Source of the DNA: Shouchella hunanensis
GTDB taxonomy: Bacteria > Bacillota > Bacilli > Bacillales > Bacillaceae_D
Length of the DNA: 64,000 nucleotides
Assembly: GCF_028735875.1 (NCBI RefSeq)
Contig: NZ_CP117834.1
Span: 558,001 to 622,000, forward strand
Direction: 5' to 3'
How positions within the stretch are numbered: position 1 is the stretch's first letter; every line of letters begins with the position of its first letter. The translations under genes were made by a program, and so were the position numbers. A model generated the notes under the pieces. The model saw nothing but the letters and a program-made list of their open reading frames with translations, was not told where the DNA came from and did not search any database. Below are positions 34,029 through 40,090 of this stretch, in pieces.

Positions 34029-35780
34029 ATGTTTGAATTACTTCTTCTTATGCTAGAGAGGCTTGGCCTCATTGTCATGCTTGCTTTTATTGCCACACGA
34101 TTTCGCTTTTTCCGCAAGATGGCTTCATCCATTGAATTATCTATTAAGCAAAAAACAACTGCCATTTTATTTTTCGGAGTGTTTGGCATTATTGGAACCT
34201 ATTCTGGGGTGACATTTCAACCAGAGTCACTTGCATTAGAACGCTTTACCTTCGCCATTCCAGATGATGCGGCCATCGCTAATTTTCGTGTTATTGGCGT
34301 CATGCTCGCTGGCTTATTTGGAGGTATGAAAGTTGGTTTAGGTGCAGGCTTAATTGCTGGCATTCACCGAATGATGCTTGGCGGATTTACAGCGGTAGCG
34401 TGTGGCGTCGCTTCCATTTTAGCTGGTGTATTAGCGGCCTATTACCGAAAAAAAAATCCCCAAGTCATTTACCAACCACTACACATTATGATCCTTGGTG
34501 CTTTAGCAGAAGCCATGCAAATGGGGTTAATCGCCATTCTTGCTACACCAACAACGAGAGCGATTGAACTTGTACAGCTTATTGGAATACCGATGATTAT
34601 CGCAAACGGGATTGGCTGTGTATTGTTCTTTCTTATAATTCAAAGTGTATCAAAAGAAGAGCAAAAGGCAGGGGCGTTGCAAGCGCAGAAAAGTTTGCGA
34701 ATTGCTGAACAAACACTTGTTTATTTAAAGCATGGCCTGAGCAACCAATCTGCCTTTAACGTGTGCACGATTCTGTATAAAGAATTAAATGCTTGTGCAG
34801 TCGCTATGACGGACCGCAGCCTTATTTTATCCCATATTGGTGTAGGAGCCGATCACCATAAAGCAAATATGGTGATCCAAACGCAGTTAACATCAGAGGT
34901 CATGAAGCAGAAAAGAATGATCATTGCTAGTGACGACGAAATACATTGCAAGGAATCTCAATGCCCGTTAGGAGCAGCTGTTATTGCACCGCTTATTATT
35001 CGCGATAACGTTGTTGGAACGTTAAAGTTTTATTATCATTCTAAAAAAGACATTACAGCCCTTGAGACTGAAATGCTTTCTGGACTGACAAAATTGCTGA
35101 GCAGTCAGCTTGAATTAGCTGAGGCCGACCGAGCATACCAGTTAGCAAAAGATGCTGAGGTAAACGCACTTCAAGCGCAAATTAGTCCGCATTTTCTCTT
35201 TAACACACTCAATACTGTTATTTCGCTTATTCGACTAGACCCTAAAAAAGCAAGAACGATGCTACACTCATTATCGCAGTTTTTACGTCACAACGTTTCT
35301 GCTACAACTGTGACTTTTCACTCTTTAAAAGAAGAACTTCAGCATATACAAGCTTATTTATCAATTGAAGAAGTGCGGTTTGAAGATCGTTTATCAGTTA
35401 CGTATACCATTGAGGAAGAACTACAAGCCGTCTCCATCCCCCCATTAACGTTGCAACCTTTGGTGGAAAACGCCGTTAAACATGGCTTTCGCAATAAACG
35501 CTTTAACTGTGAACTTACCATCCACGTATTTCATCATGGTGACAAGGTTGGACTACGTGTACGTGATAATGGTGAAGGGTTCGACGAATCGATGCTAAAC
35601 CTAAATGAACGTGGACAAAAGACTGACTCAAGCACAGGAATTGGTATCTACAATAGTAATAAACGCTTGCAGATGATGTTCGGAGAGTCTGCCTCACTCC
35701 GTTTCAGTACGGAACTTGGAAAAGGCACGACGGTTGAATGTTATATTCCAAAATCAACTCGAAAGGAGACGGTAGAATGA
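34029..35780 (+). CDS. lytS: LytS-family sensor histidine kinase
   Basis: A 5TM-5TMR_LYT membrane sensor (residues about 1-200), a GAF domain (about 220-360), and a His_kinase domain with NALQAQISPHFLFNTLN (phospho-acceptor His) then HATPase motifs PLVENAVKHGF, RVRDNGEGFDE and GIGIYNSNKRL. The 583-residue layout matches LytS/BtsS/YpdA. B. subtilis LytS senses extracellular pyruvate and E. coli BtsS does likewise. The response regulator overlaps the stop codon (ATGA) and a CstA-type transporter follows, supporting pyruvate sensing here too. Confidence 0.93.
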   Translation: MFELLLLMLERLGLIVMLAFIATRFRFFRKMASSIELSIKQKTTAILFFGVFGIIGTYSGVTFQPESLALERFTFAIPDDAAIANFRVIGVMLAGLFGGMKVGLGAGLIAGIHRMMLGGFTAVACGVASILAGVLAAYYRKKNPQVIYQPLHIMILGALAEAMQMGLIAILATPTTRAIELVQLIGIPMIIANGIGCVLFFLIIQSVSKEEQKAGALQAQKSLRIAEQTLVYLKHGLSNQSAFNVCTILYKELNACAVAMTDRSLILSHIGVGADHHKANMVIQTQLTSEVMKQKRMIIASDDEIHCKESQCPLGAAVIAPLIIRDNVVGTLKFYYHSKKDITALETEMLSGLTKLLSSQLELAEADRAYQLAKDAEVNALQAQISPHFLFNTLNTVISLIRLDPKKARTMLHSLSQFLRHNVSATTVTFHSLKEELQHIQAYLSIEEVRFEDRLSVTYTIEEELQAVSIPPLTLQPLVENAVKHGFRNKRFNCELTIHVFHHGDKVGLRVRDNGEGFDESMLNLNERGQKTDSSTGIGIYNSNKRLQMMFGESASLRFSTELGKGTTVECYIPKSTRKETVE

Positions 35781-36511
35781 CGATTACTAAGATACGAACA
35801 ATTATTGTTGATGACGAAAAATATGGACGTGAAGAGCTCCATTATTTACTCCGAGTTTTTCCGAACATTGTTATCGTTGGTGAAGCTCAATCGGGTACAG
35901 AAGCGATTGCCAAGGTGATGGAATTGCAGCCAGACCTGCTCTTTCTTGATATTGAGATGCCAGAAATGAACGGGAAAGATGTGGCGACCATCATTAAGCA
36001 GATGAAGCAACCACCTTATATTGTTTTTGCTACTGCTTATCCACAGTTCGCCGTTGACGCGTTTCAACTACAAGCAAAAGGCTATCTTGTCAAGCCCATT
36101 GATGAGGTACAGCTCGCTGAAACCATTTCACAAGTAGAAGATGCTTTAGATATAAAAAGCACACAGGAAAAAACAAACCTAACAGCAAAGCTCGCTGTTG
36201 ATAAAGAGGATACCATTCATTTTCTCGATCCTGAGTCCATTCTTTACGCATATCGAGACGATAAAAATACAAAAGTCCAAACAAACGTAGCCGCTTACGA
36301 AAGCAAGTTAACGTTAAAAGAGTTAGAACATCGACTCGCTCCCTACGCTTTTTTCCGGGTTCACAAAAGCTATTTAGTGAACACTGCCTACATTTCAGAA
36401 ATGAATGCATGGTTTAATGGAGCGTATCAATTAACGTTAACAGGCGTTTCAGAACAAATACCAGTAAGTCGTAATTATGTCAAACCATTGCGAAAAATGA
36501 TTGAATTATAG
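35777..36511 (+). CDS. lytT: LytTR-family response regulator
   Basis: The receiver domain (IIVDDEKYGREEL; phosphorylated Asp in LLFLDIEMPEMNG; Lys in YLVKPIDE) is joined to a C-terminal LytTR DNA-binding domain (FRVHKSYLVNTAYISEM, IPVSRNYVKPLRK). AAGGAGAC precedes ATG 35777 inside lytS, so translation is coupled. LytTR proteins bind pairs of direct repeats about 21 bp apart; such repeats stand before the next gene, a CstA-type transporter, which is the likely target. Confidence 0.94.
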   Translation: MTITKIRTIIVDDEKYGREELHYLLRVFPNIVIVGEAQSGTEAIAKVMELQPDLLFLDIEMPEMNGKDVATIIKQMKQPPYIVFATAYPQFAVDAFQLQAKGYLVKPIDEVQLAETISQVEDALDIKSTQEKTNLTAKLAVDKEDTIHFLDPESILYAYRDDKNTKVQTNVAAYESKLTLKELEHRLAPYAFFRVHKSYLVNTAYISEMNAWFNGAYQLTLTGVSEQIPVSRNYVKPLRKMIEL

Positions 36512-36535
36512 AGCCGACACTTTGGCTCTATTTTT
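36509..36535 (+). terminator. Terminator between lytT and cstA
   Basis: A 7-bp stem (36509-36515 with 36524-36530) includes the lytT stop codon and is followed by T5. Confidence 0.8.
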
Positions 36536-36538
36536 CTG

Positions 36539-36568
36539 CATGTTGATCACTAATTTTGACATGTTACG
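36539..36568 (+). promoter_or_regulatory. LytTR-type direct repeats before cstA
   Basis: CATGTTGAT (36539-36547) and CATGTTACG (36560-36568) are 21 bp apart, the spacing used by LytTR dimers, and share the GTT core. The downstream -10 (TACAAT at about 36600-36605) has no good -35, as expected for an activator-dependent promoter. Confidence 0.5.
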
Positions 36569-36612
36569 ACAAAATCAGCCTTTCTGATGGTAAATCCCTT
36601 ACAATACGACTA

Positions 36613-36626
36613 TGAAAACGCATTCA
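36613..36626 (+). promoter_or_regulatory. Near-consensus cre site
   Basis: TGAAAACGCATTCA matches 13 of 14 positions of the CcpA cre pattern. It lies just after the presumed -10 of cstA, where CcpA binding represses. Confidence 0.65.
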
Positions 36627-36649
36627 CTCATGGTGAAGGGAGAACAATT

Positions 36650-38101
36650 ATGATTACTTTTTTAATTGCTTTAGTCCTCTTATTTGTCGGCTACTTTACG
36701 TACGGCAAATTTGTAGAAAGAGTTTTTCAACCTAAAGCAGAGCGACCAACTCCAGCTTATACACAAGCTGATGGCGTTGATTACTTGCCAATGGGTAAAA
36801 ATAAAAATGCTTTAATCCAATTAATTAGTATTGCTGGTGTTGGTCCGATTTTTGGACCAATTATGGGAGCGCTTTATGGTCCTGTAGCATTCATTTGGAT
36901 CGTACTAGGTTGTATTTTCGCTGGTGCGGTTCACGATTACTTAACTGGTATGATTTCCATCCGAAACGGTGGTGCTCATTTACCTGAACTTGCAGGTCGC
37001 TTTTTAGGAAAAGCGATGAAGCATGTCGTAAACGCTTTCTCTATCTTACTATTATTACTTGTTGGTACGGTGTTCGTTGCATCACCAGCGGACTTACTTT
37101 ACGATCTTGTAAATGGTTCAGTACCTGTTCTGATTTTTGTTATTTTCATTTTCATTTACTTCTTATTAGCAACGATCTTACCAATAAATAAAATTATCGG
37201 CAGTGTTTACCCCTATATTGGTGCATTATTATTATTTAGTACAGTTGGTATTGGGATTGCCCTCGTTTGGCATCAAGCTCCCATCCCAGAGCTCTCGTTT
37301 GAAAACACACACCCAGCAGGTGCGGCTATTTTCCCACTCTTATTTTTAACCATTTCATGTGGAGCTTTATCTGGGTTTCACGCAACACAATCACCAATTA
37401 TTTCGCGGACAACGCAGAACGAAAGTCAGGGGCGCAGAATTTTTTACGGAATGATGATTGCAGAAGGCATGATTGCGATGATTTGGGCTGCTGCTGCAAT
37501 GAGCTTATTTGATGGTCCGATTACACTAAATGAATTAATTAATACCATTGGTACAGGTGGTATTGTGTCTGAAATCTCAACAGCCATGTTAGGACCGATT
37601 GTCGGTACACTCGCTATATTAGGTGTCATTATTCTGCCAATCACTTCTGGAGATACAGCTTTCCGAAGTGCACGAATGATCATCGCCGACTATATTAAAG
37701 TCCCACAAAAGAAAATGATGAATCGAATATGGATTGCCATGCCTCTATTCATCCTGTCTATTTTCTTAACAACCGTTGATTTCACCATGCTTTGGCAATA
37801 CTTTAACTGGGCAAATCAATCAACAGCCGTTATCGCACTCTGGATCGGCGCTATGTTCTTATATATCTCTCGTCGAAATTACTGGATTGCTATTTTTCCA
37901 GCATGGTTTATGAGCGTAACAGCAACAACGTATATTATGAATGCACCGATCGGGTTAAACCTATCCATGCAGACATCTGTCATCATCGGCGTCGTGTTCA
38001 CTATCTTTTTAACGATCTTATTCTTCAAGGCTGCAAGCAAGCGCCGTGGGAATAATCACCCGTTAGAAGATGATGTATCGAATTGGAAGCAGAGCGCATA
38101 A
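36650..38101 (+). CDS. cstA: CstA-family carbon starvation transporter
   Basis: The 483-residue protein has about 13 membrane helices with GPIFGPIMGALYGPVAFIWI, GAVHDYLTGMIS and SGFHATQSPIISRT, all CstA signatures. E. coli relatives BtsT and CstA take up pyruvate and peptides. It is shorter than those (about 700 residues) and lacks most of their C-terminal part, like several Firmicute forms. AAGGGAGA sets ATG 36650. LytST upstream, LytTR-like repeats and a cre site suggest induction by pyruvate and repression by glucose. Confidence 0.92.
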   Translation: MITFLIALVLLFVGYFTYGKFVERVFQPKAERPTPAYTQADGVDYLPMGKNKNALIQLISIAGVGPIFGPIMGALYGPVAFIWIVLGCIFAGAVHDYLTGMISIRNGGAHLPELAGRFLGKAMKHVVNAFSILLLLLVGTVFVASPADLLYDLVNGSVPVLIFVIFIFIYFLLATILPINKIIGSVYPYIGALLLFSTVGIGIALVWHQAPIPELSFENTHPAGAAIFPLLFLTISCGALSGFHATQSPIISRTTQNESQGRRIFYGMMIAEGMIAMIWAAAAMSLFDGPITLNELINTIGTGGIVSEISTAMLGPIVGTLAILGVIILPITSGDTAFRSARMIIADYIKVPQKKMMNRIWIAMPLFILSIFLTTVDFTMLWQYFNWANQSTAVIALWIGAMFLYISRRNYWIAIFPAWFMSVTATTYIMNAPIGLNLSMQTSVIIGVVFTIFLTILFFKAASKRRGNNHPLEDDVSNWKQSA

Positions 38102-38103
38102 TT

Positions 38104-38150
38104 CAAAAAAAGAGGAGTACGGATGCTTCATCCCTACTCCTCTTTTTTAA
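38104..38150. terminator. Bidirectional terminator between cstA and the decarboxylase gene
   Basis: A 14-bp perfect stem (38106-38119 with 38135-38148) with A run before and T run after. Confidence 0.92.
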
Positions 38151-39789
38151 ATGCTCTTATTTGTTTTACATAATCAGGTGCATCCATTGGATCATCGACT
38201 ACAATCTCCACTACACATAAACAGTCATTCTTTTCAATTTGACGAAGCACATGTTGTAGTTCTGTTGTTGTTTTAGCTTTAAAATGTGTAGCACCACCAC
38301 CGAAGCCTTCAAGTAGAGAGCTATAGTTCCATGTTGGAATATCGTTATAAACTTGTTCCTTTGTTTCTGTGTTCAAATACCTCTCAATCGTATAACCAGC
38401 ATTATTTAACACGAAGATAATAGGTTTACAGTCATAATAAAGCATGGAACTTATTTCCTGAACCGTAAGCTGCATTGACCCATCACCTGTAAATAACAAC
38501 GTTCTACGATTAGGTTCTGCGATAGAGGCACCAAATGTAGCTGCCGTTGCAAATCCTATTGATTGCCATCCGCCTTGCTTTAAATAACTAACCCCTTTTG
38601 TCATTCGAGCTTGGGACATACCGTAGAAAAACGTTCCTGTCTCCACGATAACGATATCTTCTTCCTTGATAAAATCTTGCAAGATTGGATAATAATTAGA
38701 CGCACGTAAAGCTTTGTCTTCTGTTTCCAATGCTGTAGCATAAGGGAAAGTAATTGGAGAAGCTACGGTGTCTATTGAAATTTCTAACGTCCCAATTTCT
38801 TTTAATACATCATAGGCTTTCACATTCTCATACGTAGCATGCTCTACCCTTACATAGTGTGGTTGTATATCAATTAACTGCTCTTTCTTTAAAGAAGCTG
38901 TAAAATTAGCTGTATTTGTATCCGCCCAAACAAGTCCAACAGCGATGACACAATCTGCATGTTCTACTCGATCCCTTACTTCATGGCTCCCAAAATCACC
39001 TGCATACATACCGATGTACTGATCTGAGCTTTCATCCACTGAGCCTTTTCCATATACCATGCTCGCTACTGGAATACGAAGTGATTCTGTTACTTCCTGA
39101 ATTAGCTTTTCCAATTCAAAACTTTTCACTTTCGTATCAACTAACAAAATAGGCTTTTGACTGTCACTTACTTTTTTTTCAATGTGGCGCATCGCTTGTG
39201 CAAACGTTTCTTTGTCCGTTTTAAAGCGTAAAATGTCTTCCGCTTCCTTCTCTGTTATCGGTTCATTCGCATGATCATCTGCCACCATCATGTAAACAGG
39301 CTTTTGATAATCTTTTGCCATTTGTATCGCTTTTGCTACTTCCGTTTTTGCGTTGGAAGGTGTAACCACCGTACTATAAGCTGAAATTTCAGTAAACATC
39401 CGTTTGAATACATGAAAGTCCCCGTTCATTAACGTATGGTGCACGTGTAATCCTTTTGCTTGTTTGTCATAGTCAGGCGCTCCGACAATATGGATAATTG
39501 GGATGTTCTCGCAATTCGCACCCGCTATCGCGTTTGCTGCACTTAATTCACCAACGCCAAACGTTGTTATAAGGGCAGAAATTCCATGCAAACGTGCGTA
39601 TCCATCAGCTGCATACCCAGCATTTAATTCATTTCGGTTGTGAATAAATCGTAAGCCATCTGTTCTTTCAAGCGTATCGAGTAAAGCAAAGTTATAATCA
39701 CCTGGAACACCGAACACATCTCGAATTCCCTCATTATACAAAGATTCATACAAGTAGTCTCCAACAGTTTGTTGGTTAGCTCTATCCAT
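38134..39789 (-). CDS. Thiamine-diphosphate 2-oxoacid decarboxylase (pyruvate/indolepyruvate decarboxylase family)
   Basis: The 551-residue enzyme has the three thiamine diphosphate enzyme domains. VPGDYNFALLD and NELNAGYAADGYAR with the cofactor-activating Glu, the catalytic pair in LHVHHTLMNGDF, and the C-terminal GDGSMQLTVQEISS...NNAGYTIE cofactor motif are all present. It decarboxylates pyruvate, indolepyruvate, phenylpyruvate or branched 2-oxoacids to aldehydes; which one cannot be told. GGAGGGAG with 7-8 nt spacing selects ATG 39789 over ATG 39810. It converges with the pyruvate-type transporter. Confidence 0.92.
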   Translation of the reverse strand: MDRANQQTVGDYLYESLYNEGIRDVFGVPGDYNFALLDTLERTDGLRFIHNRNELNAGYAADGYARLHGISALITTFGVGELSAANAIAGANCENIPIIHIVGAPDYDKQAKGLHVHHTLMNGDFHVFKRMFTEISAYSTVVTPSNAKTEVAKAIQMAKDYQKPVYMMVADDHANEPITEKEAEDILRFKTDKETFAQAMRHIEKKVSDSQKPILLVDTKVKSFELEKLIQEVTESLRIPVASMVYGKGSVDESSDQYIGMYAGDFGSHEVRDRVEHADCVIAVGLVWADTNTANFTASLKKEQLIDIQPHYVRVEHATYENVKAYDVLKEIGTLEISIDTVASPITFPYATALETEDKALRASNYYPILQDFIKEEDIVIVETGTFFYGMSQARMTKGVSYLKQGGWQSIGFATAATFGASIAEPNRRTLLFTGDGSMQLTVQEISSMLYYDCKPIIFVLNNAGYTIERYLNTETKEQVYNDIPTWNYSSLLEGFGGGATHFKAKTTTELQHVLRQIEKNDCLCVVEIVVDDPMDAPDYVKQIRAFKKEE

Positions 39790-40090
39790 GATTCGTCTCC
39801 CTCCAGTCATCTTACAGAACCTATACCCTAATCTCGCATTTGCACACCTTTTATTACATCCGTCAAAACAGTTCCTATGACCTAATAAAAAATAGTTATT
39901 TTTTCCTTTTTATAGAAGGTATTTAACAATTTATGCAGAATTATCTATATGCAAAACCATTTTTCGACGAAAATACTGCACGCTCTACTTCTTTAGACAT
40001 ACACAACTTCTCGTGTTGCTCTGTTCCTCTACCTTCCTTGGCCTTGTAATCCTTACCCTTTAGTCTCTGTTAGTTTGTAATCCAATAGGA

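Follow-up and report, generated by a model that had tools for sequence, protein, structure and literature searches.

In the present study, we analysed a 64-kb stretch of the 4.06-Mb genome of Shouchella hunanensis (G000, C1:558001-622000), hereafter the window, in which a LytS/LytT two-component system (LytST) is followed by a short gene of the CstA transporter family. The region between lytT and cstA carries paired LytT-type boxes and a catabolite-responsive element (cre), and a gene for a thiamine pyrophosphate (TPP)-dependent 2-oxoacid decarboxylase lies convergent behind cstA. The features are given below with coordinates as positions in the window.

34029..35780, + strand: lytS, LytS-type sensor kinase (Pfam 5TM-5TMR_LYT, His_kinase and HATPase_c; also GAF)
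35777..36511, + strand: lytT, response regulator (Pfam Response_reg and LytTR)
36508..36531, + strand: intrinsic terminator after lytT
36517..36524, + strand: third, weaker LytT-type box ACACTTTG (6/8), in the 21-bp register and within the terminator hairpin
36538..36545, + strand: LytT-type box 1 GCATGTTG
36559..36566, + strand: LytT-type box 2 ACATGTTA, exactly 21 bp from box 1, start to start
36600..36605, + strand: putative -10 TACAAT, placed by sequence and absent from the promoter-like matches of the promoter scan
36613..36626, + strand: cre TGAAAACGCATTCA, 13/14, at or just past the putative transcription start
36650..38101, + strand: short cstA, 483 residues, predicted secondary transporter of APC/LeuT fold (PF02554)
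38134..39789, - strand: TPP-dependent 2-oxoacid decarboxylase with three TPP_enzyme domains, convergent neighbour of cstA
39823..39828, - strand: GGGTAT, SigB-like -10 ahead of the decarboxylase, kept in 7/7

Results

All elements named in the preliminary description of this DNA, namely lytS, lytT, the 21-bp repeats, a weak -35, the cre, cstA and the convergent decarboxylase, were present as first described. The domains of LytS and LytT all scored above the curated Pfam cut-offs, which places the pair among the LytS/LytTR two-component systems, and LytT was the only response-regulator-type LytTR protein found in the genome. No good -35 could be placed 17 bp ahead of the putative -10. The listed open reading frame (ORF) of cstA begins at 36587, and the ATG with a Shine-Dalgarno sequence is at 36650. 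The genome's only other LytTR domains (L009, C1:2197009; L010, C1:966602) stood at the C-terminus of 331-332-residue proteins, by eye resembling ATP-binding cassette (ABC) ATPases, beside ABC transporter genes.

The box pair was evaluated in the promoters of short cstA genes with two copies of the consensus RCATSTTR (maximum 16/16) at spacings of 10-35 bp. Promoters were called linked when LytST stands beside cstA, and dereplication, which removed the window itself, relatives above 95% and near-copies, reduced the linked set from 78 to 58 and the unlinked set from 65 to 49. Pairs of at least 14/16 at 21 bp were present in 43 of the 58 dereplicated linked promoters versus 2 of the 49 unlinked ones and 0.17% of shuffles, and among the spacings only 21 bp stood out. 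The window pair scored 16/16, a value never reached when the intergenic region was dinucleotide-shuffled 5000 times, and the zero-mismatch pair pattern occurred in the whole genome solely at the cstA promoter; the consensus and this genome-wide pattern were written with the window site in view. For that reason the test was repeated with a pair of 12-mers learned from distant relatives, namely 45 promoters of cstA genes encoding a protein less than 75% identical to that of the window. The motif learned independently had the consensus TTCTGCATGTTA and gave 21.9 bits per promoter at spacing 21, versus 11.0-13.8 bits at other spacings. On the window it scored 28.3 bits at 36534, the shuffle maximum being 15.7 (0/2000). 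By both the pair scoring and the independent motif, the regulator sites are direct repeats with a 21-bp period, as in other LytS/LytTR systems. Furthermore, a third box of at least 6/8 was found in register in 57 of the 60 linked promoters having a pair of at least 14/16, and the distance from the last box to the cre was usually 46-56 bp.

Elsewhere in the genome the search was less informative: when three mismatches were allowed, 648/632 matches were obtained against 526/553 for the control, so that most of them are noise. Two of the one-mismatch places were inspected by eye; C1:465525 lies inside an ORF resembling a major facilitator superfamily (MFS) carrier and C1:3063440 in a stretch of small ORFs with no evident carboxylate gene. 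The genome also has a second CstA (C1:2917892-2919349, a 550-residue open frame, 25% identical), for which the matches listed hold no upstream pair with two or fewer mismatches, the upstream region itself being unscored; a listed pair place at C1:2918803-2918831 falls inside its coding match.

The link between LytST and cstA was then followed across an order-wide sample of 249 genomes. A short CstA was present in 134 of them (E<=1e-60), and LytS was matched in 145 (E<=1e-70). Short CstA of at least 61% identity occurred in 121 genomes; 105 of these also had a LytS hit, adjacent by best-hit coordinates in 94 and away from short cstA in 11. In two genomes, G278 and G055, a LytS of the short-CstA type (52-53% identical to that of the window) lies on another contig and the boxes are kept (16/16 and 14/16), and in 9 genomes with solely other LytS kinds the boxes are absent (9-12/16). 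Sixteen genomes have short CstA but lack LytS among the hits listed, and the 12 of them that were scored (all but G122, G214, G251 and G274) reached at most 13/16; G270, counted here at 13/16, appears to carry a fragmentary lytST beside cstA. The boxes thus go with having the matching LytST type in the genome, also when it acts in trans, and not with cstA itself, and this is the strongest evidence for a regulatory link between LytST and cstA. The arrangement in G055 (L288) is itself unusual, since lytS and lytT are convergent to each other and far from a cstA that still carries LytT-type boxes.

The cre was scored against a consensus of 14 positions. A cre of at least 13/14 was present in 68/78 linked and 28/65 unlinked promoters, versus about 0.5-0.8% of mononucleotide shuffles; two of those tallied as unlinked in this count (L044 and L136, both with boxes of 14/16) are so placed only since the contig ends before lytT. 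In linked promoters the cre lies mostly 29-49 bp ahead of the ATG. The window cre (13/14) is convincing because so many of its LytST-linked relatives carry one, and a promoter cre conserved in relatives is what is expected of a member of the CcpA regulon. Short CstA without adjoining LytST, 60-66% identical, was seen in Exiguobacterium (L195-L206), with promoter cre matches of 13-14/14, and in Halomonadaceae (most rows of L164-L191), with no such promoter matches.

To examine the sensor, 86 LytS proteins were aligned; frames of 480 residues or fewer and loci L093-L116, whose flanks cut lytS, were excluded. The phospho-acceptor His was kept in all 86. In the window LytS, R87, R114, C125 and A128 align with R72, R99, C110 and S113 of the Escherichia coli sensor BtsS. 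Arg72, Arg99 and Cys110 were kept in all 52 sensors linked to short CstA, as well as in those linked to long CstA (14/14), PftAB (3/3) and MFS carriers (3/3). The Ser113 position in the 52 short-CstA sensors was occupied by Ser (17) or Ala (35), and in the alignment PyrS, which is described as pyruvate-responsive, has Thr there. Sensors linked to sodium/solute symporter family (SSF) carriers had lost all four BtsS pyruvate positions (6/6). These SSF-linked LytST pairs (L253-L256, L237 and L247), with their pocket lost, should sense another ligand.

The window CstA belongs to the CstA family (TC 2.A.114), as it scored 188.5 bits against PF02554 with a gathering cut-off of 27. The pyruvate/proton symporter equivalog (PRK15015) was missed, with 85.9 bits against 1188, and the protein shares 25-27% identity with BtsT and long CstA. 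A PDB sequence search with it returned no relative. The predicted model (mean pLDDT 78.5, pTM 0.81, the two confidence scores of the prediction) has the APC/LeuT fold, being nearest to KimA (Z 27.2, root mean square deviation 2.9, 345 residues aligned), with MhsT, AdiC, ApcT and others about 2-3 Z units below it and Foldseek matches from E 4.9e-7. Because of this predicted fold, short CstA is likely a secondary transporter; the fold leaves its cargo unspecified.

The surroundings of LytST in other Bacillales were studied in 40 loci retrieved around LytS hits. Because hits lacking an adjoining short CstA were preferred, the following counts are not frequencies: long CstA 14, PftAB 3, SSF 6, lactate/oxalate-type MFS 3, short CstA with or without insert 5 (those with LytST) and no obvious transporter 6. 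Transporter classes were given by tblastn together with ORF size and order, with a check by hidden Markov models for L223 (long CstA), L237, L247 and L254 (SSF) and L248 and L249 (MFS); those of L250, L253, L255 and L256 come from size and order alone. Across the order-wide sample, LytST had CstA as its partner more often than any other transporter. CstA beside LytST thus recurs in this sample and is no oddity of one strain. On the LytS tree, sensors group by transporter partner (10 changes for 8 groups versus a shuffled mean of 32.5), this being a quick tree with long-branch warnings, above all for the E. coli rows. One partner swap was seen, a long CstA (L223) within the short-CstA LytS clade. 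The box letters also vary with the partner, because at two PftAB loci (L232 and L233) the boxes, again 21 bp apart, read GCATTTCA; boxes at these loci, at L225 and at L254 were judged by eye. When the short-CstA consensus was applied to long-CstA, SSF and MFS promoters, it gave 10-14/16, no better than at other spacings. Three genomes of the family (G002, G001 and G005) carry extra LytST pairs (L248-L250) that group with E. coli PyrS and adjoin lactate/oxalate-type MFS carriers.

The decarboxylase was sought in 41 family genomes at E<=1e-100. It was present in 7, which belong to a single genus, and in each of them it lies convergent with cstA, across 59-99% identity; it was absent from the other 34, including the same-genus genomes G029 and G034, which keep lytST-cstA. 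In all 7 genomes neither a LytT pair (10-12/16) nor a cre (10-11/14) was found upstream of it, and GGGTAT lies 39-69 bp ahead of its start, with a poor -35. SigB promoters consist of GTTTAA, a spacer of 12-15 bp and GGGTAT, and the genome has a sigB gene (394 bits against a cut-off of 315). The nearest solved relatives of the enzyme are yeast-type pyruvate decarboxylases, followed by branched-chain and indolepyruvate decarboxylases. The alignment with the yeast-type enzymes has the core motifs in common and does not allow the substrate to be derived; the indolepyruvate decarboxylase equivalog TIGR03393 was missed (446.6 bits against 946), while membership of the superfamily is clear.

Discussion

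Taken together, the comparison supports, by inference, a control of cstA by LytST together with glucose control through the cre. We consider it quite probable that a pyruvate-type LytS/LytT activates the adjacent short cstA, that CcpA represses the gene through the cre, that CstA imports an oxoacid and that the decarboxylase stands outside the regulon. The membrane domain of LytS would bind pyruvate or a similar oxoacid, as the pocket residues suggest, and LytS would then phosphorylate LytT. LytT would occupy two or three boxes of the 21-bp series immediately ahead of the promoter, which lacks a proper -35, and recruit RNA polymerase to cstA; the regular box spacing and its association with the short-CstA type of LytST come from the comparison of promoters. 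When glucose is present, CcpA on the conserved cre over the start site would block transcription of cstA, and CstA, judged by its family, would import the oxoacid.

The decarboxylase had been placed in the same programme by the preliminary description, which read the locus as sensing, uptake and decarboxylation of pyruvate or a related oxoacid under glucose control. The proposed LytST control of cstA under a cre is supported by the 21-bp boxes and the conserved cre. As a member of the LytST regulon the decarboxylase was rejected on its distribution (7/41) and its lack of LytT and cre sites. Because it has neither LytT pair nor cre, carries a SigB-like GGGTAT instead and occurs in so few genomes, it is taken as a lineage-specific neighbour apart from the LytST circuit, probably under SigB through what may be a general-stress promoter.

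Several observations weigh against the proposed circuit. Boxes below 14/16 occur in 18 of the 78 linked promoters, the lowest being 11/16. The cre is weak when taken alone, as 126/20000 mononucleotide shuffles reach 13/14 and several further 13/14 matches lie inside the window. Across 338 residues, short CstA and BtsT share only 27% identity, and the cargo of short CstA may differ. In addition, the BtsS Ser113 is Ala128 in the window, and in the BtsS study changes at Ser113, S113A among them, blocked the induction and expression of btsT (PMC10653868). Because of this effect pyruvate as the LytS ligand is likely but not secure, and the earlier description of a pyruvate-type sensor keeps three of the four BtsS residues in its favour, with the fourth replaced by Ala.

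The same circuit could work with a ligand and cargo other than pyruvate, such as a related 2-oxoacid or hydroxyacid, a peptide or an amino acid. This seems rather unlikely to us. In its favour it can be said that Ala occupies the Ser113 position in 35/52 short-CstA sensors, that short CstA is so distant from BtsT and long CstA (25-27%) and falls so far below the PRK15015 cut-off (85.9 of 1188 bits), and that many amino-acid transporters are among its fold neighbours. However, in 52/52 the sensor retains the two Arg and the Cys that the BtsS model places close to pyruvate, and what a changed pocket looks like is exemplified by the SSF-linked sensors, which lost all four positions in 6/6. We regard it as very improbable that the whole neighbourhood, decarboxylase included, forms one regulon for oxoacid uptake and decarboxylation; the constant convergence with cstA wherever the enzyme occurs (7/41, 59-99% identity) would suit such a regulon, but the upstream regions carry GGGTAT and no LytT pair or cre in 7/7, and 34/41 genomes, G029 and G034 with their lytST-cstA among them, do without the enzyme. 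It is harder still to believe that the repeats arose by chance or serve another protein while LytST governs other genes of autolysis or holin-like function. Staphylococcal LytSR does control lrgAB, and a single LrgAB-like pair occurs in the genome, but no pair with two or fewer mismatches lies near it among the matches listed, the window score was unmatched in 5000 and in 2000 shuffles, and the boxes track the LytST type, not cstA.

Compared with known systems, the locus appears to join two designs, a CstA-family target as in BtsSR-BtsT and a Gram-positive LytST with cre as in LytST-pftAB. In E. coli, BtsSR is a LytS/LytTR pair that drives the CstA-family pyruvate symporter BtsT (PMC5552118, PMC10653868). 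The window resembles this system (BtsS/BtsR-BtsT, also YehUT-YjiY) in combining such a pair with a CstA-family transporter and in keeping the R, R and C of the pocket, LytS and LytT being 30% and 35% identical to BtsS and BtsR, respectively. It differs in the Ala at Ser113, in its short CstA (483 residues, 27% to BtsT), in the promoter cre and in the adjacency of the two-component and transporter genes. In Bacillus subtilis, LytT is described as using a pair of 13-nt boxes with 8 nt between them (a 21-bp period), with CcpA repressing pftAB (PMC5626966). The window shares with it LytST, the box period and the CcpA/cre control; unlike it, the transporter is CstA, the cre lies past the -10 rather than over the -35, and the boxes read RCATSTTR versus GCATTTCA in the PftAB loci. 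The third comparison, E. coli PyrS/PyrR (YpdAB)-YhjX, shows 35% identity of LytS to PyrS and 33% of LytT to PyrR, but YhjX is an MFS carrier, and the PyrS-like sensors of the family adjoin MFS genes (L248-L250). Finally, the long CstA (PRK15015 type) beside LytST in other Bacillales has the same type of two-component system and gene order as the window (14 loci), with a protein of about 600 residues that is 39-43% identical to BtsT and about 25% to the shorter window form.

The earlier view that CstA stands where B. subtilis has PftAB agrees with these results, since the neighbour of lytST in the window is cstA and not pftAB. Nor did a pftAB under LytT control appear elsewhere as far as can be read from the genome: its sole LrgAB-like pair (L007) is of CidA/LrgA type, falls short of the equivalog cut-offs for LrgA and LrgB, lacks an adjoining lytST and shows no upstream box pair with two or fewer mismatches among the matches listed. 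In the literature no report of a LytST-CstA pair in Bacillales or Gram-positives was found, subscription papers lying largely outside the search.

Conclusion

If the proposed circuit is right, the gamma-proteobacterial BtsSR-BtsT layout would be a common Bacillales pattern too, with CcpA control added, and PftAB of B. subtilis would be a minority LytST partner in the sample. More tentatively, and with less confidence than we place in the circuit itself, LytS/LytT of the Bacillales may be a reusable sensing cassette that has been coupled to carboxylate transporters of five or more kinds (short CstA, long CstA, PftAB, SSF and MFS), the operator letters and the sensor pocket varying along with the partner; the Ala-type short-CstA sensors and the pocket-less SSF sensors would then read other carboxylates. 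In that case the transporter class would predict the sensor ligand, and the natural sensor-transporter pairs may serve as a set for reading the ligand specificity of LytS.

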